Source of the DNA: a virus
DNA length: 47,628 nucleotides
Virus record (IMG/VR): IMGVR_UViG_3300036785_000572
Span: 1-47,628 of that record
Direction: 5' to 3' (one strand)
Position 1 is the stretch's first letter. Each line of letters opens with the position of its first letter. The translations under genes were made by a program, and so were the position numbers. Under the pieces are notes generated by a model. It ran no database searches and was not told the DNA's origin. It saw only the letters and a program-made list of their open reading frames with translations. Shown here one piece after another: positions 10,210 to 18,062 of this stretch.

Positions 10210-10626
10210 TCACAGCCTCTCGATCCGCACGGCGAGCCCGGGTGTTTCGCCGAAAAATTTATGCACCGTGGCATCGGCGATCTGGGCGTCGTCGCGCCAT
10301 GCGATCTTGTTGAGCGCGTCGCCGACGATCTTGCCGATGTTGTCGTAGTCGGGCTTGGTCCAGCGCCAGCGGTTGGCGTCGCGCTTCTTCTGCGACCACG
10401 CCCGCGGCCACGGATAGCAGGCGAGCAGCGTGAGCTTGATCGGCCCTTCGAGCGGCGGCGCGCCCTTCATCGCGGTCGAGCAGATCAGCTTGAGCGCGGT
10501 CATGTAGTTCGCTTGTTTCGATGGCGTGTAGTGCGGTACGGTCTTGCCGCCGCGGGCGCGCGCCCACGGGACCAGCTCGCCGGGCACGACGAACTCGATC
10601 GCCGCGGTGGTGGCTGAGGTCAGCAT
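10210..10626 (-). CDS. rusA: RusA-family Holliday junction resolvase
   Basis: 138 aa from ATG 10626 (GGAGG upstream). It shows the RusA pattern: FVVPGELVPWARAR near residue 12, then KPDYDNIGKIVGDALNKIAWRDDAQI with the acidic residues D93, D95 and D112/D113 that form the metal site. It cuts four-way junctions made during phage recombination or replication. It lies in the lytic minus-strand operon, while Exo and Bet are in the opposite operon. Confidence 0.9.
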   Translation of the reverse strand: MLTSATTAAIEFVVPGELVPWARARGGKTVPHYTPSKQANYMTALKLICSTAMKGAPPLEGPIKLTLLACYPWPRAWSQKKRDANRWRWTKPDYDNIGKIVGDALNKIAWRDDAQIADATVHKFFGETPGLAVRIERL

Positions 10627-11090
10627 GGCGAGCCTCCGCGCGCGTTGAGCCAAGCGTGGTGTGGGCAGTACCGCGAGCCCTCGACCGCCATGCCGCCGCA
10701 GTAGAGCTTCGCCCGGATGTCGCGCTCCTGGTGGCCCCACATCGGCCAGTGGCAGGCGTCCTCGGTCAGCTCGGTGATCAGACAGGGCGAGGCGTGCAGC
10801 TCGGGCTGGCCGTGCTTGGTGCGGCTGGGTTCGGGAAACCTGGTGCGCGGCTGCCGCACCCATGGTGCCGGCATGGGCGCGCGAGGCGGCGGCGGCTGGC
10901 GATGGTGGCTGCGCTTGCCGCTCGGCTTCGGCTTGGGCTCGGGCCCGGGAAAATGCAGGCCCATGCGCGCGGCCTTGCCGATGACGGAGTTTTTGGTGGT
11001 GCCGAGTTCATCGGCGATGGCGCGCGCGCTGCATCCGTCGGCGCACATCCGCTTGAGATCATTGATGGAGATCGGGTTCCAATCGAACAT
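10620..11090 (-). CDS. gcrA: GcrA-family transcription regulator
   Basis: 156 aa. Residues 1-46 form the GcrA HTH (SARAIADELGTTKNSVIGKAARMGLHF). A Pro/Lys-rich linker follows, and the C-terminus has CHWPMWG (C113), C131, and YCPHHA (C142, H144, H145), the usual GcrA ending. In Caulobacter, GcrA binds sigma70 and methylated GANTC sites and activates cell-cycle promoters. A phage copy could redirect host RNA polymerase or sense host methylation state. First gene after the cro-like gene; a repressor-type operator (11124-11140) lies 34 bases upstream. Confidence 0.85.
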   Translation of the reverse strand: MFDWNPISINDLKRMCADGCSARAIADELGTTKNSVIGKAARMGLHFPGPEPKPKPSGKRSHHRQPPPPRAPMPAPWVRQPRTRFPEPSRTKHGQPELHASPCLITELTEDACHWPMWGHQERDIRAKLYCGGMAVEGSRYCPHHAWLNARGGSPC

Positions 11091-11123
11091 GACCTGTCAC
11101 GGATTTCATTTATGACTGTTATT

Positions 11124-11140
11124 TATACCTGGACGGAATG
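11124..11140. promoter_or_regulatory. Repressor-type operator, copy 1
   Basis: TATACC-tggac-GGAATG, 34 bases upstream of the gcrA-like start, overlapping a minus-strand TATAAA that may be a -10 box. It belongs to the family TATNCC-N5-GGNATR found at four other regulatory points in 11464-12012. Confidence 0.55.
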
Positions 11141-11269
11141 TCGCAGATCGTTCATCATCGGCGTTGCAATGCCGAAAATACCTCGAAGTCGGAGCACCGG
11201 CATGAGGCTTTGCAGCATCACAACTCTCACTCCGGACGGCCTTTCCGAGTTGCGCCTGTACGAGCGCGT

Positions 11270-11455
11270 TCAGTCCGACGTCCAGTCGTCGTATGACACC
11301 TTGCCATTGGTCGCATGCTTGATGCGGGTCATGACTTCGAAGCTTGGGATACGTCCGCTGGCATATCTCGACACGGCTGCTTGGCCGACGCCGATTTTAT
11401 CGGCGAATTCGCGTTGCAAGAGCCCCTTGCATTCGAGGAATTCGGCTAGCCGCAT
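11270..11455 (-). CDS. Cro-like repressor
   Basis: 61 aa, one HTH domain: REFADKIGVGQAAVSRYASGRIPSFEVM. It diverges from the CI-like gene, the standard lambda-type switch. A promoter TTGCAT-N16-TATATT (11489-11462 on the minus strand) places the transcript start at or next to the A of ATG 11455, so the message may be leaderless. One operator (11464-11480) lies between its -35 and -10. It would shut down the repressor and favour lytic growth. Confidence 0.75.
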   Translation of the reverse strand: MRLAEFLECKGLLQREFADKIGVGQAAVSRYASGRIPSFEVMTRIKHATNGKVSYDDWTSD

Positions 11456-11463
11456 ATCCTCAA

Positions 11464-11480
11464 TATACCTCGACGGCATA
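11464..11480. promoter_or_regulatory. Switch operator between cro -35 and -10
   Basis: TATACC-tcgac-GGCATA, an imperfect inverted repeat lying exactly in the 16-base spacer of the cro promoter (-35 TTGCAT at 11484-11489, -10 TATATT at 11462-11467, minus strand). Bound repressor would block cro transcription. Confidence 0.65.
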
Positions 11481-11559
11481 AGAATGCAAGCCGCCGCTGC
11501 ATATTCATGCGCGTATGAGGACAGCTCAAAAGTTCCGGTAGACAAAAAAGCGCAAGCAA

Positions 11560-11576
11560 TATACCGTCTCGGCATG
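11560..11576. promoter_or_regulatory. Switch operator over the cI start
   Basis: TATACC-gtctc-GGCATG. The last three bases are the ATG of the CI-like gene, and TATACC can serve as its -10 box. This position suggests that the repressor limits its own synthesis. Confidence 0.6.
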
Positions 11577-11939
11577 CCGATTAGAGATTTGCGCATTAAA
11601 GCCAAGTTGAACCAAGCCGAGCTTGCCGCAAAAGTTGGTATCGGCCAGTCCAGCCTGTCCCGCTATGAGAAGGGACGGGTGCCCGACATAGAGACGGCAA
11701 GGCGCTTGGCAGTGGCATTGAATGTCGCTCTGACGGACGTCCGCCCGGACCTCAAGGATATAGACGCCGCACCACCCCAGCCGGCCCCGCCGGCGCAATC
11801 AGCCCCTGCGATCGACAGGCTCGACCAGGTGCTGGAGCTGTTAAAATACGAAACCCCAGAGGTCAGGGAGCGGATCAGAGAGCGTGTCGCACGCGAAATT
11901 TTGGCGGTCCTTGTGGAAACTTACAAGGACTGCGCCTGA
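11574..11939 (+). CDS. CI-like phage repressor
   Basis: 121 aa. Residues 2-60 are an XRE HTH (RDLRIKAKLNQAELAAKVGIGQSSLSRYEKGRVPDIETARRLAVAL). After a Pro-rich linker, a helical C-terminus (LDQVLELLKYETPEVRERIRERVAREILAVLVE) may dimerise. There is no S24/LexA-type autocleavage domain, so induction probably does not use RecA-driven self-cutting. No ribosome site precedes ATG 11574, and the predicted -10 is 8 bases upstream, as for leaderless lambda cI. Lysogeny repressor acting on the five operators around it. Confidence 0.75.
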   Translation: MPIRDLRIKAKLNQAELAAKVGIGQSSLSRYEKGRVPDIETARRLAVALNVALTDVRPDLKDIDAAPPQPAPPAQSAPAIDRLDQVLELLKYETPEVRERIRERVAREILAVLVETYKDCA

Positions 11940-12114: not shown

Positions 12115-12360
12115 ATGAAATCGAAGCCCAAAACTTTTGCCGCAAAAAAGAAGTCGGCCCCAGCGCGTGAGCCGAAGCCTGCCCCGCGCAAGGTGATCCA
12201 GGTCGCGCCGCTCGACGTCAGCAGCCCCTACCTGGCGATCGCGCTGTGTGATGACGGCACCGTCTGGCTGGTCACGCAGACCGGCGGCCTCAAGACCGCG
12301 ATCCACGAGCTGGTGAACTTGCCGGAGCCGGAGCCAAAGCGGGAACCGGAGCCGGCGTAA
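12115..12360 (+). CDS. Small protein before exonuclease gene
   Basis: 81 aa from ATG 12115, with GGGAGG upstream. Basic, disordered N-terminus (KSKPKTFAAKKKSAPAREPKPAPRK), then a short beta-rich part (YLAIALCDDGTVWLVTQTGG) and a Pro/Glu tail. First gene of the recombination operon. It overlaps the exonuclease start by one base (TAATG). Function unknown. Confidence 0.6.
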   Translation: MKSKPKTFAAKKKSAPAREPKPAPRKVIQVAPLDVSSPYLAIALCDDGTVWLVTQTGGLKTAIHELVNLPEPEPKREPEPA

Positions 12361-13148
12361 TGCTCACAGCTGAACAGCTCAAGGCGCGCGCCGGCAAGCT
12401 GACCGGCAGCCGGATCGCCTGCCTGATGAAGGGCGATCCCGTCGCCATCGACCGGCTGTACCGGGAGATGATCGGCGAGGCCGAGGAGGAGGACCTCCGC
12501 CATGTCTGGCCGGTGCGCCTCGGCGAGGCGACCGAGCAACTCAACCTCGACTGGTTCGAGCAGAAGAACCAGATGCCGGTGACCAGCCGCGGCCGGGTGG
12601 TCGTCCATCCGAGGATCAACTGGGCGGCCTGCACACTCGACGGCTGGTGTGCCGACCTCAGCTGCCCGATCGAGTGCAAGCATGTCGGCGGCCGCGAGCC
12701 GCTGGAGGTGGTGATCGATCGCTACCAGCCGCAGTGCCAATGGCAGATGGAGATCACCGGCGCCAACCAATGCGCGCTGTCGGTGATCATGGGCGGCAAC
12801 GAGCCGATCGTCGAATACATCGACCGCGATGACGGCTACATCGCCGAGATGATCAGGCGCGGCCGGATGTTCATGGACTGCGTCGCACGCCGGGTGTCGC
12901 CGGTGGCGCTGCCGGCGGCGCCGTCGCCGATCGACGCCAGCAAGACGTACGATCTCAGCATGAACAACACGTGGGTGAATTACGCGACCGAGTGGCTTGC
13001 AACCAGACAGTCTGCCGAGAAGTGCAAGGAGGCAGAGAAGGTCCTGAAGTCGATCGTGCCTGTCGACGCGAAGAAAACGCACGGCGGAGGCGTCCAAATT
13101 ACCAGGGATAGGGCTGGCCGCCTTAGCCTGAGGGAGGCTGCACCATGA
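12360..13148 (+). CDS. YqaJ-like viral recombinase (lambda Exo-type exonuclease)
   Basis: 262 aa. It has the YqaJ/lambda-exonuclease core: GKLTGSRIACLMKGD at the N-terminus, RLGEATEQLNLDWF around residue 55, CTLDGWCAD with the metal-binding Asp near residue 93, and PIECKHVG (Glu/Lys catalytic pair) near residue 103, followed by QCQWQMEITGA. It digests 5' strands of double-stranded ends to give 3' tails. It sits two small genes upstream of bet, the usual Exo-Bet pair for single-strand annealing recombination. Confidence 0.85.
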   Translation: MLTAEQLKARAGKLTGSRIACLMKGDPVAIDRLYREMIGEAEEEDLRHVWPVRLGEATEQLNLDWFEQKNQMPVTSRGRVVVHPRINWAACTLDGWCADLSCPIECKHVGGREPLEVVIDRYQPQCQWQMEITGANQCALSVIMGGNEPIVEYIDRDDGYIAEMIRRGRMFMDCVARRVSPVALPAAPSPIDASKTYDLSMNNTWVNYATEWLATRQSAEKCKEAEKVLKSIVPVDAKKTHGGGVQITRDRAGRLSLREAAP

Positions 13149-13591: not shown

Positions 13592-14512
13592 ATGACCAAG
13601 GTTGTCGCCGTTCCGCAAGGCACGAAGGCGGTTGCCTTCAGCACCGAACAGGTCGACCTGATCAAGCGAACGATCTGCAAGGGCGCGACCAACGACGAGC
13701 TGCAGTTGTTCATGCATCAGGCCGAACGCACCGGTCTAGATCCGCTGTCGCGGCAGATATACGCCGTCAAGCGGTGGGACGGTCAGCAGCGGCGCGAGGT
13801 CATGTCGATCCAGGTTTCGATCGACGGCTTACGTCTGATCGCCGAGCGAACCGGAAAATATAGAGGTCAGGTTGGCCCGCTCTGGTGCGGTTCCGATGGC
13901 GAGTGGTGCGACGTCTGGGTATCGGACGCGCTTCCTGCCGCAGCCAAGGTCGGCGTTCTGCGGTCGGACTTCACCGAGCCGTGCTGGGGCATCGCGCGCT
14001 TCTCCTCCTACGCACAGCGAAACAAGGAGGGCTTCCCAACTCGAATGTGGGCGACGATGCCCGACGTCATGACCGCCAAGTGCGCGGAGGCCCTAGCGCT
14101 GCGCAAGGCATTTCCGCAAGAGTTGTCCGGCCTCTACACGACCGATGAGATGGCACAGGCCGCCGCAGCACCGTCGGAACCAAGGCGCCCACCGCCACCG
14201 GCGCCCAACGTGATGGAGCCGCACGACCCCGAGACCGGAGAGATCGTCGACGACAGTTCGCCGCCGGCCCAAGTACCAAACTCGTCGACGGCGGCGACGA
14301 CCGCTCCGCCACCTCAGTTCCACGCCGAGGATGGCGGGGCGGTCCCTGACGAGCACGAGCTGACGCTCGACGAGGAGGCGCGCATGGCGGCGAGCCACGG
14401 TCGCGCAGCGTTCGAGGTGCTGTGGAAGCGGCTCAATTACGACGAGCGCAGGTCGCTCAACCCGATCATGGACGAGCTGGGCACGCTGACGCGGGAGGCG
14501 GATGCAAAATGA
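13592..14512 (+). CDS. bet: Bet-type single-strand annealing protein
   Basis: 306 aa. Residues 18-180 match phage recombination protein Bet: [42 protein letters not shown], then [12 protein letters not shown] and [13 protein letters not shown]. It coats the 3' tails made by the YqaJ exonuclease and pairs them with complementary strands. The C-terminal 110 residues are Pro/Ala-rich and may contact host single-strand-binding protein. Its stop overlaps the ATG of the array-bearing gene. Confidence 0.9.
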
Positions 14513-15327
14513 CGATCATCAAGGATGCCATGCACCGCGCCGGCTTCGACCGCAAGAAGTTCGAGCTGCGTGTCGTGCTCAAGAACTTCCTGCTGGCCGG
14601 CGGAACATACGAGGACGTCATCGGCATCCTCGACGAGCTGCGGAGCGAGGGCCACAGGACGGCTGTCCAACAGGACCAGAACGCGATTGCCCCCGCTCCG
14701 CCCCCGCTGCCGCGCGAGGACCATGGGAGCCGTGCCGTCTTGGGCCATGAACCTGCTGTCGACGCGCGGCAACCCATCACCGGCGAGGGCCAAATCTCGA
14801 TTGTCCAGCAGAACCATGTCGTAGATGCCTCCGCCGGTGCCCTCGTTCCCGGTGCTGACCAACTTGGTGGTGTCCAGCAGGACCAAGTTCATGTTGTCGG
14901 CGCCGGGACACCTCTTCCGGGTGAAGGCCGGTCCACAGTTGTCGGAGACGACCACCGATCGAGTGCCGACACCCGGAAACCCATCACGGGCGGTGTGGCC
15001 ACCCCAGGTGCGCCTGCAAAGGCCAGTATACCTCCGCCGCCCGCCCGTGAGCCCGACGAGGCCTACAAGCGTGCCGTGGCGCGGTCGCGGGCCGAGACCG
15101 CCAAGGTGCAGCTGGAGCTGCGCAAGACCAGCAACGGCACACCGTGGGGCAGTGTGAAGCCATACGAGTTCGTCGGCATGGAGCGCGATGGCCACATCGC
15201 CTGGGCCATCCGCGAAACCTTCGGACCGTTCTCACCCAAACAGGAGCAGATGGAGCTGCGGCAGTTCCTGCCCGATGAAATCTTCAAGAGGGCGCTGACG
15301 CTCGCCGAGATCGATCATGTTCGCTGA
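14509..15327 (+). CDS. Two-domain protein split by a 23-residue repeat linker
   Basis: 272 aa. Residues 1-44 are a helical domain ([28 protein letters not shown]). Residues about 45-180 are repeats of 23 residues beginning VQQDQ/VQQNH. Residues 180-272 are a conserved helical domain ([49 protein letters not shown]). The linker repeats are better conserved in DNA than in protein and fold as six stem-loops (see the array feature). The terminal domains are of a type I associate with rhizobial phages, without known function. It is coupled to bet (ATGA) and overlaps the next frame by 11 bases. Confidence 0.7.
14641..15050 (+). repeat. Array A: six stem-loop modules, 69-base period
   Basis: Modules: S1 14641-14700, S2 14710-14769, S3 14779-14838, S4 14848-14907, S5 14917-14976, S6 14984-15050. 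Each has an outer stem of 7-15 bp, CA plus 10 variable bases, an apical hairpin (GTCC-AGCA-GGAC type) plus CA, 9 variable bases, and the closing stem. Outer stems change in pairs: CGGAGCG/CGCTCCG in S1, ACCGGCG/CGCCGGT in S3, CCCGGTGCTGAC/GTCGGCGCCGGG in S4. Apical pairs also change together: GTCC/GGAC, GCC/GGC (S2), GCCT/AGGC (S6). Likely a structured RNA inside a coding sequence. Confidence 0.85.
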
Positions 15328-15559
15328 GCTGCGGAGCGAGGGCCAGCCAGCGCCCGTCCAACAGGACCACGAGGAGTATGCCCCCGCTCCGCTCCCGATG
15401 CCGCGCGTCGACCACAAAATAATTGTCACCGCGACCACAGCCCCGATGTCGACGCGCGGCAACCCATCACCGGCGAGGGCCAGAAAAGGCGTGTCCAGCA
15501 GGACCAGCGTATTCGCGCCCCCGCCGGTGACCCGTTTCGGAGATGACGATGTCCGCTGA
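15317..15559 (+). pseudogene. Partial duplicate of the array-bearing gene, frame slipped
   Basis: 80 codons starting [10 protein letters not shown]. Bases from 15327 copy 14636 onward of the previous gene (GAGCTGCGGAGCGAGGGCCA is shared), giving three more modules and none of the conserved terminal domains. Module two has one base fewer than its counterpart, so later DNA (TGTCGACGCGCGGCAACCCA block) is read in a different frame. The unslipped frame would end in TGA at 15544-15546, overlapping ATG 15543. Either a decayed copy or DNA kept for its RNA rather than its protein. Confidence 0.6.
15332..15528 (+). ncRNA. Array B: three stem-loop modules, candidate guide-like RNA
   Basis: Modules S1' 15332-15391, S2' 15401-15459, S3' 15469-15528. 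S2' has a perfect 12-bp outer stem (CCGCGCGTCGAC with GTCGACGCGCGG) where its counterpart S2 has mismatches, and a GTC-accgc-GAC apex. The variable strands (gccagcgccc/cgaggagta, caaaataatt/cagccccga, gaaaaggcgt/gcgtattcg) differ completely from those of array A. It lies 20 bases before the IS110-like gene, the place where IS110 elements can encode their bridge RNA. RNA status is inferred from structure and covariation only. Confidence 0.5.
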
Positions 15560-16343
15560 ACTCATCGCCGACATCCGCGCCGCGCACCGCGAGCGTTGCT
15601 TCGCCATGGAGCAGCGCAAGCGTGCCGATCTCGCGCTCGGCGCCTTCCTGCGAATGATGCTCGGCTGGCGCAAGGACCTGCCCGACAAGGAGCGCAAGGC
15701 GATCGCCGACCGGGCGGCGCTGCTCATGGCCGGCAAGGAGCCGTGCGAGTGGACGGCGATCATCGACGCCTCGCGACAAGCCCGGGCGCCCTTCGAGGCC
15801 GTGGAAAAGGACCGGCTCAAACGGATGGAAAAACTCGCCGAGCAATTGCCGGTGTGGTCCGCGTTCGGCGACGCCGTCCGCGGCTTCGGCCCGGGCTCTC
15901 TTGCCGTCATCGTCGGCGAGGCCGGCGACCTCGCGCTCTACGCCAGCGACGCCAAGCTGTGGAAGCGCATGGGCCTCGCCGTCATCGATGGCGTGAGGCA
16001 GGGCGGGCTGCGAAGCAACGCCAGCAAGGAGGACTGGATTATGCACGGCTACAGTCCGGTGCGCCGCTCGCGGATGTGGAACATCGGCGACGCCATGATC
16101 AAGGGCAACCGCGACGGCGTGTATCGCGCGGCCTATCTGCGGCGCAAGGCCTACGAGCACGCGCGCGAGCCCGAGATGTCGAAGCTGCACGCGCACCGGC
16201 GGGCGCAGCGCTACATGGAAAAACGCCTGCTGCGCGATCTGTGGCGGGCGTGGCGGCGGACCACAGCATCAGTGGCAATGCCCATCGTTGATTTGTCCGC
16301 CGCCATCATTGAAAGGCCGGGGCAAGAGTTAACAAAGTGTTAA
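15549..16343 (+). CDS. IS110 C-terminal (Transposase_20)-like protein without RuvC domain
   Basis: 264 aa. Residues 1-100 are helical (FAMEQRKRADLALGAFLRMMLGW). Residues about 108-135 carry a helix-hairpin-helix of Transposase_20 type (VRGFGPGSLAVIVGEAGDLALYASDAKLWKRMGLAV). A GYSPVRRSRMWNIGDAMIK block and a helix HAHRRAQRYMEKRLLRDLWRAW follow, resembling the IS110 C-terminal domain. The N-terminal DEDD/RuvC-like domain of IS110 recombinases is absent. ATG 15549 has GGAG 6 bases upstream; 15543 is an alternative. It lies immediately downstream of array B, so it may bind those stem-loops. Assignment by motif memory; a search is needed to confirm. Confidence 0.6.
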   Translation: MSAELIADIRAAHRERCFAMEQRKRADLALGAFLRMMLGWRKDLPDKERKAIADRAALLMAGKEPCEWTAIIDASRQARAPFEAVEKDRLKRMEKLAEQLPVWSAFGDAVRGFGPGSLAVIVGEAGDLALYASDAKLWKRMGLAVIDGVRQGGLRSNASKEDWIMHGYSPVRRSRMWNIGDAMIKGNRDGVYRAAYLRRKAYEHAREPEMSKLHAHRRAQRYMEKRLLRDLWRAWRRTTASVAMPIVDLSAAIIERPGQELTKC

Positions 16344-16364
16344 TAATTATTTGGATATGCTAGA
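16326..16364 (+). promoter_or_regulatory. AT-rich probable promoter before integrase genes
   Basis: A sharply AT-rich gap (GTTAACAAAGTGTTAATAAT, then TATTTGGATATGCTAG) in a GC-rich region. TATGCT can serve as a -10 box close to the start of the excisionase-like gene. It may let integrase be expressed separately from the early operon. No clear -35. Confidence 0.4.
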
Positions 16365-16796
16365 ATGGCATCGCGGGAGCTTCCCCTCTACTGCACCGAA
16401 GAGCAGATCGCCGAGTTCGTCCTGGGCCCCGGCCGCCTGCGCGACTGGAAGGATCGCGTCAGGATGCTGGAGCGCATCGGCCTGCCGCAGTCTGATCCGG
16501 TGATGGGTGGCCGCTACCGGCCGGCTGTCGAGCGGTTCTTTCAGCGGCGCAACGGCCTCACCACAGAAGCGGCCCCGCGGGTGAAGCCTGATCAACCGGA
16601 AAAATGGAAAACCGAATGTCCAGAGTCACCGACCTCCACCGCGACCTCGCCCCCGGAGACGCCCCCGGCCTCGAGTGGCAGCCCCGAGCCAACGGCAAGC
16701 GTGTCCCATATTGGGTCGCACCGCGCGCTGCGAAGGCCAAAGGGTTCACCCCGAAAACCGTCAAGCTCGACGCCGACGCCACCCCGGTCGAGCTAG
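16365..16796 (+). CDS. Excisionase-like small winged-helix protein
   Basis: Residues 1-75 match the small DNA-binding proteins paired with integrases in alphaproteobacterial prophages: YCTEEQIAEFVLGPGRLRDWKDRVRMLERIGLPQSDPVMGGRYRPAVERFFQRR. The frame stays open to 143 aa, but the last 60 residues are Ser/Pro/Thr low complexity and overlap the integrase gene by 193 bases. That tail may be a recent readthrough after loss of the native stop. Likely directs excision or regulates integrase. Confidence 0.6.
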   Translation: MASRELPLYCTEEQIAEFVLGPGRLRDWKDRVRMLERIGLPQSDPVMGGRYRPAVERFFQRRNGLTTEAAPRVKPDQPEKWKTECPESPTSTATSPPETPPASSGSPEPTASVSHIGSHRALRRPKGSPRKPSSSTPTPPRSS

Positions 16797-17944
16797 CCGC
16801 GGCGTGCCGCCTGTGGCAGGCGGAGGCGCTGGAGTTCATCGCGCACGGCGCCAAGGATGATCGGGCCGCGTTCGACGGCACCCTGCGCTGGCTGATCAAC
16901 ACCTACCAGACCGACCGCATCTCGCCGTTCAACACCAATTGCAAATGGAACACTCAAGCTGTCCAGACCACCTACCTGCGTGTGCTCTCCGAGCAGATCG
17001 GCATGCGCCAGATCGCCGACGTCACCGGCGCCGACGTGCGCGACTGGTACGAGCATTTCCGTACACCCAAGCGGCCGGACGACCGCGAGCGCGTCGGCTA
17101 CTCCAACCAGCTGATGTCGACGCTGCGCGCGGTGCTCCGCTTCGGCATCATCTCTGAGCCGATGGCGCGCGAGGACTGCATCCGCCTCGCCGGCAAGGAG
17201 CAGGGCATCCTGTCGTTCATGCGGTTCGAGGTCGGCGAGGCTCGCACCACCGTCGTCACCGCCGACATGGTCGACGCCTTCCGCGCCGAGGCGCACCGCC
17301 AGGGCTACCCATCGATCGCGCTCGCGACCGCCATCCAGTTCGAGACGGCGCTGCGGCAGGCCGACGTCATCGGGCAGTGGGAGCCGCTCAAGCGCGGCGA
17401 GGTTTCCGCGCAGGAGACCGCCATGGTCCGGCACTATCACCGGTGGGTCGGCGGCCTGCTGTGGGGCGAGCATGTCAGCGCCGACCTCGTGATGATCAAG
17501 CCGACCTCGAAGTCGAAGTTCAAGAAGAAGGCAGTGTCGGACTGGACGCTGTGCCCGATGATCATGGAGGAGCTGGCGCACGTCCCGCCCGAGCAGCGCA
17601 TCGGGCCGATCGTCGTCCATTCCGGGCCGCACTTCGTCACCGGCCCGTGGCGCCGCCTCGCGTTCTGGCGGCGGTGGAAGGAGATCGCCGCCGCCTGTGA
17701 GAAGACCGACCCGCGATGGAAGGGCGTCCAGAGCATGGACATGCGGTCGGGTGCGATCACGGAGGCGACCGAGGGCGTCGACGCCGAGGGCATCGAGTTC
17801 GCCAACGTGCAGAAGGTGCTCGGCACCCACGCGGCGCGGCAGATGACACAGCGCTACGCCCGCGGCACGCTCGACAAAGCACGCGCCATCCAGAGCCGTC
17901 GGGTTGCAGTTCGTAATGCCACACCAAGCACCGCCAAAACGTAG
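16604..17944 (+). CDS. int: Tyrosine-family phage integrase
   Basis: 446 aa. A core-binding SAM-like domain lies at about residues 90-185. The catalytic domain follows: ETALRQADVIG with the first Arg near residue 250, a Lys/Trp-containing beta strand, MDMRSGA near 378 (box II with Asp for the usual His), GTHAARQMTQRY with the nucleophile Tyr near 416. It inserts and excises the phage at attP/attB. ATG 16616 (MSRVTDL) is an alternative start. The repeat-rich segment right after its stop is the likely attP. Confidence 0.88.
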   Translation: MENRMSRVTDLHRDLAPGDAPGLEWQPRANGKRVPYWVAPRAAKAKGFTPKTVKLDADATPVELAAACRLWQAEALEFIAHGAKDDRAAFDGTLRWLINTYQTDRISPFNTNCKWNTQAVQTTYLRVLSEQIGMRQIADVTGADVRDWYEHFRTPKRPDDRERVGYSNQLMSTLRAVLRFGIISEPMAREDCIRLAGKEQGILSFMRFEVGEARTTVVTADMVDAFRAEAHRQGYPSIALATAIQFETALRQADVIGQWEPLKRGEVSAQETAMVRHYHRWVGGLLWGEHVSADLVMIKPTSKSKFKKKAVSDWTLCPMIMEELAHVPPEQRIGPIVVHSGPHFVTGPWRRLAFWRRWKEIAAACEKTDPRWKGVQSMDMRSGAITEATEGVDAEGIEFANVQKVLGTHAARQMTQRYARGTLDKARAIQSRRVAVRNATPSTAKT

Positions 17945-18062
17945 GCGTCCTATGCGCGTCCTATGCGTCCTACGGGCCCATTGAAATCATTGCATAAAAC
18001 GTCGCTAAATAATCCGTTCCACCAAGGTTAAGCAACTGATTTCATTGACACCCGTAGGACGG
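17945..18062. other. attP-like region: three direct repeats and a large inverted repeat
   Basis: Three head-to-tail copies of GCGTCCTATG/GCGTCCTACG at 17945, 17956 and 17965 begin one base after the integrase stop. The third begins an arm (17965-17989, GCGTCCTACGGG...TTGAAATCA) whose reverse complement returns at 18037-18062 (TGATTTCA...CCCGTAGGACGG). The AT-rich centre (17990-18036) could hold the crossover. Short direct repeats and inverted arms beside int are typical of integrase arm sites; a terminator role is the alternative. Confidence 0.5.

Follow-up and report, generated by a model that had tools for sequence, protein, structure and literature searches.

The 47,628-nucleotide (nt) stretch of viral DNA analyzed here, IMG/VR record IMGVR_UViG_3300036785_000572 (the window), very probably carries a phage TIGR-TasA system with stem-loop arrays whose guides lie within protein-coding sequence. 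Its tasA gene (15549-16343, plus strand), recognized from its open reading frame (ORF), profile matches and predicted fold, encodes a solo Nop-domain TIGR-associated protein of 264 amino acids (aa) without a nuclease domain, and is accompanied by ten guide units: arrays A and B hold six and three, and tasA itself contains another. Judged from the sequence, a single transcript seems to act as a message and, at the same time, as a store of guide RNAs. Relative to the main text of Faure et al., 2025 (PMC12045711), from which in-frame arrays within ORFs are absent, these arrays, a constant partner gene, and unit copies in A and B with unrelated spacers are new. Our comparison covers that main text; some of the loci described below may be drawn in its supplement.

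The TasA protein and its guide arrays

The NCBIfam model TIGR_Tas_endo (NF052498) matched the tasA product with E 2.9e-25 and 89.5 bits, about 10 bits short of the model cut-off of 100, and matched all 69 proteins in our Tas alignment. The product in a phmmer search, and the 69-sequence profile at E 8e-25, both led to 9MTY, the deposited structure of the TaTasR ribonucleoprotein (RNP). Relatives of the product are labeled 'transposase' in PHROGs (phrog_4285, E 2e-17), and the NCBIfam IS110 model matched 47 of the 69 aligned Tas proteins. An IMG/VR scan with the single protein returned no relatives; a four-sequence alignment later recovered them.

An AlphaFold2 model of the product (68 sequences; mean predicted local distance difference test score (pLDDT) 93, predicted template modeling score 0.85) was compared with known structures by VIA-align. 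TasR (Z 17.4, 190 residues, 2.8 Å) and TasH (Z 17.1) ranked above ISCro4 and IS621 (Z 13.6 and 13.2, about 175-179 residues aligned) and archaeal Nop5 (Z 8.5). A preliminary description of the window, which gave the same ORF and quoted peptides that are all present in it, had noted a likeness to the C-terminal half of IS110 proteins and proposed a structural check against IS621/IS110; the likeness was found, yet TasR and TasH score higher. The description was also right that a DEDD/RuvC N-terminal domain is missing. According to the ORF and the model, residues 2-98 instead form the long helices of the Nop/Tas coiled coil, and the product lacks the domain that defines an IS110 recombinase. The C-terminal Transposase_20-like RNA-binding fold of IS110 proteins is present but nonspecific, being common to Tas proteins; the main text of Faure et al. 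likewise describes the Nop domain of the TIGR-Tas family as related to the IS110 RNA-binding domain. No nuclease Pfam match was obtained for the product, whose model has a helical Nop-type fold only, with neither RuvC nor HNH, as in the TasA subtype, and lacks the fibrillarin-binding N-terminal domain of Nop5/Nop56/58. The NF052498 match, the profile match to 9MTY and the fold similarity to TasR identify a Nop-domain Tas protein, and a nuclease-less protein of this kind is a TasA under the definitions in the main text of Faure et al. On this sequence and model evidence, the product almost certainly belongs to TIGR-TasA.

Each guide unit consists of a palindromic stem, CCA (box C), a 9-nt spacer A, TG (box D), a loop, a second CCA, a 9-nt spacer B, a second TG and the closing stem. 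A scan for CCA-N9-TG-loop-CCA-N9-TG with paired flanks found nine ungapped units on the plus strand, plus A6, which has a gapped stem, and none on the minus strand of the window. Six units remained when strict boxes and 10 or more of the 14 flank pairs were required, whereas 200 second-order Markov shuffles averaged 0.005, bearing out the structured array of the preliminary description. Every unit has two spacers of 9 nt, and the boxes are CCA and TG with some CCG/CG variants. The ten units thus show the TIGR-Tas arrangement of adjacent tandem units with two 8-12 nt spacers between box C and box D, and their stems, variable yet palindromic, take the place of edge repeats; according to the main text of Faure et al., TIGR arrays have spacers like these and stem-loop arrays have stems in place of edge repeats. 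They do not have the dual-repeat form (stemless 36-nt units with alternating 8-12-nt edge and loop repeats), as the period is 68-71 nt and the stems have at least 10 paired positions. The folding energy of array B lies 6.7 standard deviations below dinucleotide shuffles. Among 25 units with 10-nt loops, drawn from the window and seven relatives, all 10 stem pairs vary on both sides, with a covariation score of 0.67 compared with at most 0.17 in slid controls. Rfam searches of the whole window at gathering scores, and of 14400-16500 at E up to 1, gave no relevant family, no snoRNA and no K-turn family match.

Array A (14638-15050, plus strand, as are all units) has a period of 69 nt from A1 to A5 and lies in the frame of the partner ORF. 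Its units are A1 (14638-14703; spacer A CAGGACGGC, spacer B GAACGCGAT), A2 (14707-14772; TGGGAGCCG and TGAACCTGC), A3 (14776-14841; AATCTCGAT and TGTCGTAGA), A4 (14845-14910; ACTTGGTGG and AGTTCATGT), A5 (14914-14979; GTCCACAGT and CCGATCGAG; first box C CCG) and A6 (14985-15050; CCCCAGGTG and GTATACCTC; both box D CG). Array B (15329-15531) comprises B1 (15329-15394; GCCAGCGCC and CGAGGAGTA), B2 (15398-15462; CAAAATAAT and CAGCCCCGA; loop 9 nt) and B3 (15466-15531; GAAAAGGCG and GCGTATTCG); its last stem arm ends about 18 nt ahead of the tasA ATG, close to the 20 bases given in the preliminary description. The unit-like element C1 (16247-16309; 11-bp stem, 7-nt loop, CAGCATCAG and TCGTTGATT) lies in the 3´ coding end of tasA, right after a conserved W-R-x-W-R, where relatives hold a unit too. 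C1, array A within the upstream ORF and the small ORF through array B were overlooked in the earlier description.

Alignment searches recovered 80 viral and 5 genome loci related to the window, whereas a plasmid search found no relatives. Of 72 non-redundant loci, at least 59 contain units under strict definitions, one of these definitions being for a second type of box and loop in a further clade, for which we use the working label 'marine-type'. Across the related loci the unit model gave 145 matches on the tas strand compared with a single one on the opposite strand, and the loop pattern alone retrieved IMG/VR contigs with tas genes (loci L009 and L015) or with an array near the contig end (L011). 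Homologues are thus not regularly found without an array. Of the proposal that the protein is a domesticated RNA-binding or DNA-joining partner of the array, the RNA-binding part stands, given this co-occurrence; a domesticated IS110 recombinase or DNA-joining enzyme does not fit the TIGR-Tas placement and the lack of a catalytic domain. The suggested parallel with bridge RNA also fails, as the RNA has the dual-spacer tigRNA architecture in tandem stem-loops, not that of a single two-loop bridge RNA.

Some relatives have features of their own. L072-L101 (for example, L082:4072-4860) form a further clade with arrays between partner and tas, a box D that is mostly CG and an 8-nt CAGMAATG loop; these arrays often begin where a TAATG overlaps the partner stop, and one frame is nearly, not fully, open. 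Rhizobium phage RHph_X2_25, an isolated and cultured rhizobial phage, has a relative (L006:7512-8567) annotated as a hypothetical protein and would be a practical laboratory starting point for tests of the system.

Partner gene and reading frames through the arrays

In 81 of the 89 loci, the gene immediately upstream of tas is a partner gene; several of the exceptions are truncated by contig ends. This survey used a profile grown from 27 sequences. The partner in the window (14509-15327, plus strand, 272 aa), whose start ATG overlaps the RecT stop (ATGA), has helical N- and C-domains (aa 1-59 and 184-271), both confident in an AlphaFold2 model, joined by a linker encoded by array A that is predicted to be disordered (pLDDT below 50, approximately residues 72-157). 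Neither Pfam, ParB included, nor PHROG gave a match to the partner, tblastn found none in phage isolate records, and the fold had no credible counterpart in the PDB, a test weakened by the disordered linker. Because the remaining neighbors vary between loci (structural, replication and repressor genes), partner, tas and array look like a movable cassette. The constant linkage points to a possible role of the partner as a cofactor of the RNP, in processing or as an effector; the partner family is not described in the main text on TIGR-Tas.

A second ORF, of 80 aa, runs through array B (15317-15559, plus strand). Its ATG lies 8 nt ahead of the partner stop and its own stop 8 nt past the tasA ATG, so that it is coupled at both ends, with junction geometry as in relatives. 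The two start-stop junctions that flank it, ATGttcgcTGA and ATGtccgcTGA, are similar.

Across the loci, arrays occupy the partner linker (nine loci, window included), an N-terminal extension of tas (about 20 loci) or the tas C-terminal tail after W-R-x-W-R. Stops were absent from the 1098 codons of the tas frame in the N-terminal array regions, compared with 14 in 1111 and 37 in 1113 codons of the other frames; for partner-linker arrays the counts were 0 in 595 codons of the coding frame, and 6 in 596 and 18 in 602 elsewhere. Units in the partner mostly keep one codon phase, with spacings that are mostly multiples of three, and in each of the nine loci whose arrays separate the N- and C-domains, the two domains share a frame. 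Where an array lies between partner and tas, most loci keep an in-frame tas start that overlaps the partner stop (offset -1, -5, -8 or -11), with the array read through, and the overlap has the same geometry in loci without an intervening array.

Several points weigh against a coding-embedded guide system as described here. At strict thresholds 13 of the 72 loci have no unit, though several carry weaker ones; the units used for covariation were pre-selected for stems, which makes that result supporting only; and the partner profile was iterated and built partly from the surveyed loci. The stop counts are partly circular, since ORF openness helped choose the loci, a concern that applies less to the start-stop overlaps and the frame agreement of the partner domains. 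Array B of the window is out of the tasA frame, and translation and processing of the arrays are predicted here from sequence. The marine-type clade and several others have stops in every frame between partner and tas; with many loci, this clade above all, not open, the coding embedding is lineage-specific. On balance of the sequence evidence, we consider the embedding probably genuine.

Possible spacer replacement, proposed function and alternatives

A1-A3 and B1-B3 (14638-14841 and 15329-15531) are a duplication about 690 bp apart; the copies differ very little in their stems, boxes, loops and linkers, whereas the six spacers share only 13 of 54 bases, the chance level. Likewise, between L056 and L058 (89% identity) one unit has a spacer A in which every one of the nine bases differs, while spacer B and long flanks are identical. 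These sequences suggest replacement of whole spacers. A comparison of orthologous spacers in relatives covered 12 units, some doubtful, a small and mixed count that serves as an example only.

Near matches to guide pairs within the window and the fetched loci were no better for real than for shuffled pairs. Searches of IMG/VR gave 10 exact sites for guide A1, five of them at the same codons of divergent portal genes, nine for A2 (three in a single gene family), two for A4 and 11 for B2 (ten of one near-identical sequence); a wrong-geometry control gave 11, which, apart from two identical sequences, showed no homologous cluster. Because the background is about 10 matches per pattern, control included, we make no target claim from these sites. 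The predicted 18-bp target of guide A1, with a 1-nt gap, is exact at the QDGYRVL codons of the five portal genes (phrog_1216; L107, L112, L114, L115 and L116). These sites would fit a role against other phages, but are suggestive only and are not counted as evidence.

The following mechanism is proposed. RecT, the partner, the array-B ORF and tasA overlap and would presumably be carried on a single transcript. From the anatomy of the units, each is predicted to fold on this RNA into a hairpin with box C (CCA) and box D (UG) around the two 9-nt spacers. If the published stem-loop TasA system is a guide, a TasA dimer would bind the boxes and a host RNase would trim the units into stem-loop tigRNAs. 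As for TasR, the RNP may then bind DNA sites of 18 bp, with spacers A and B pairing with opposite strands, and the bound sites would be bent or blocked but left uncut, TasA being nuclease-less. Guide making would cut the partner or TasA message, a built-in negative feedback. The likeliest role would be interference with competing phages or prophages, to which we give somewhat less than even weight. More tentatively, array messages might be spent for guides, making expression self-limiting, and spacers swapped by exchange as frame-preserving 9-nt cassettes, perhaps aided by the partner or RecT, with the partner as the missing TIGR-TasA accessory for processing, adaptation or effector function.

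Different readings of the locus were weighed against a coding-embedded TIGR-TasA system. One, which we consider unlikely, keeps TIGR-TasA but takes the arrays as ordinary non-coding ones and the ORFs through them as high-GC accidents. Array regions are not open in many related loci, third-position GC is 0.65 in array A compared with 0.91 and 0.85 in the flanking coding parts, and for any one array the probability of being open is sizeable (P 0.07-0.82). Accidents of this kind are nonetheless unlikely to leave both sets of array codons free of stops in frames set by the neighboring domains, together with the constant codon phase and multiple-of-three spacings of most partner units, the coupled starts and the shared frame of the partner domains. 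It is a slightly smaller chance, in our view, that TasA and its guides assist the integrase of the phage itself, or some other site-specific process, instead of acting on competitors, a possibility raised for TasA in the main text of Faure et al. An integrase-like ORF does follow tasA, with inverted repeats that may be attP, but flanking genes differ between loci, and the listed sites with at most two mismatches to the window guides all lie outside the window.

The origin of the protein and repeats can also be read differently. A domesticated fragment of an IS110 recombinase, with arrays derived from bridge RNA and acting as an RNA-binding or DNA-joining partner, would account for the real likeness to the C-terminal regions of IS110, IS621 and ISCro4 and for a guide RNA that adjoins the gene; given that the closest structures and profile are those of TasR and TasH, that the DEDD domain is absent and that tandem single stem-loops with two 9-nt spacers are unlike a lone two-loop bridge RNA, we regard it as very improbable. 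Scarcely credible is an array of peptide-coding tandem repeats or phage regulatory hairpins unlinked to TasA: the repeats do lie within ORFs and form hairpins, but such elements would not be expected to show the exact geometry of boxes and spacers, the strand bias and the co-occurrence with tas, nor would their loop sequence alone have fetched tas loci from IMG/VR.

The main text of Faure et al. lists the function of nuclease-less TasA, tigRNA maturation and spacer gain as open questions. A large stem-loop TasA clade with a constant partner gene and with guides in ORFs predicted to be translated offers a handle on each of them: the partner is a candidate accessory, translation and guide processing are predicted to trade off against each other, and duplicated units have kept their scaffold but differ in their spacers. 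Guides in coding sequence would be overlooked by array searches restricted to intergenic DNA.

Genomic setting and comparison with known systems

Upstream on the plus strand, the window encodes a YqaJ/RecE-type exonuclease (12360-13148) and a RecT-type annealing protein (13592-14512), the latter overlapping the partner start. Downstream, a 446-aa ORF (16604-17944, plus strand) has tyrosine-recombinase-like motifs and is an integrase by inspection only, with no family match; the idea of an integrase as a conserved neighbor was rejected, as flanking genes vary between loci. After this ORF, 17942-18061 contains direct and inverted copies of GCGTCCTAY and the pair CATTGAAATCA/TGATTTCATTG, a possible attP region. 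Elsewhere, 10521-11939 encodes a 472-aa protein in which an HTH_3 domain (residues 354-406) follows about 350 residues with no domain assignment; it is a probable phage regulator of unusual length.

Among known systems, the stem-loop TIGR-TasA of a Peromyscus leucopus gut contig, as presented in the main text of Faure et al., is alike in its solo Nop-domain protein, tandem stem-loops, boxes C/D, two short spacers and subarrays around tas. In the window, by contrast, the arrays lie in frame within a conserved partner, a small coupled ORF and the tasA gene, whereas those in the main text are located upstream of, downstream of or between genes, and a constant partner is not reported there for the stem-loop type. 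TasParB-TasA operons (their fig. S14, as the text describes it) likewise have a second gene in an operon with tasA, but the partner there is ParB-like and the arrays are dual-repeat, whereas the window has a partner without a Pfam match and stem-loops. TIGR-TasR and TIGR-TasH (9MTY; 9W03 and others) share the Nop/coiled-coil core, 9-nt spacers (TasR) and CCA/UG boxes with the window system, whose protein lacks RuvC and HNH and whose array is of the stem-loop, not the dual-repeat, type. The bridge-RNA recombinases IS110/IS621 have a related RNA-binding C-terminal fold, but the window protein has no DEDD domain and is served by a multi-unit guide array in place of one bridge RNA. More distantly, the Nop fold (Z about 7.5-8.5) and the box C/D guide logic are those of the box C/D snoRNP protein Nop5 and of Prp31, from which the window system is set apart by a protein without the fibrillarin-recruiting N-terminal domain, RNA that matches no K-turn family and a phage setting.
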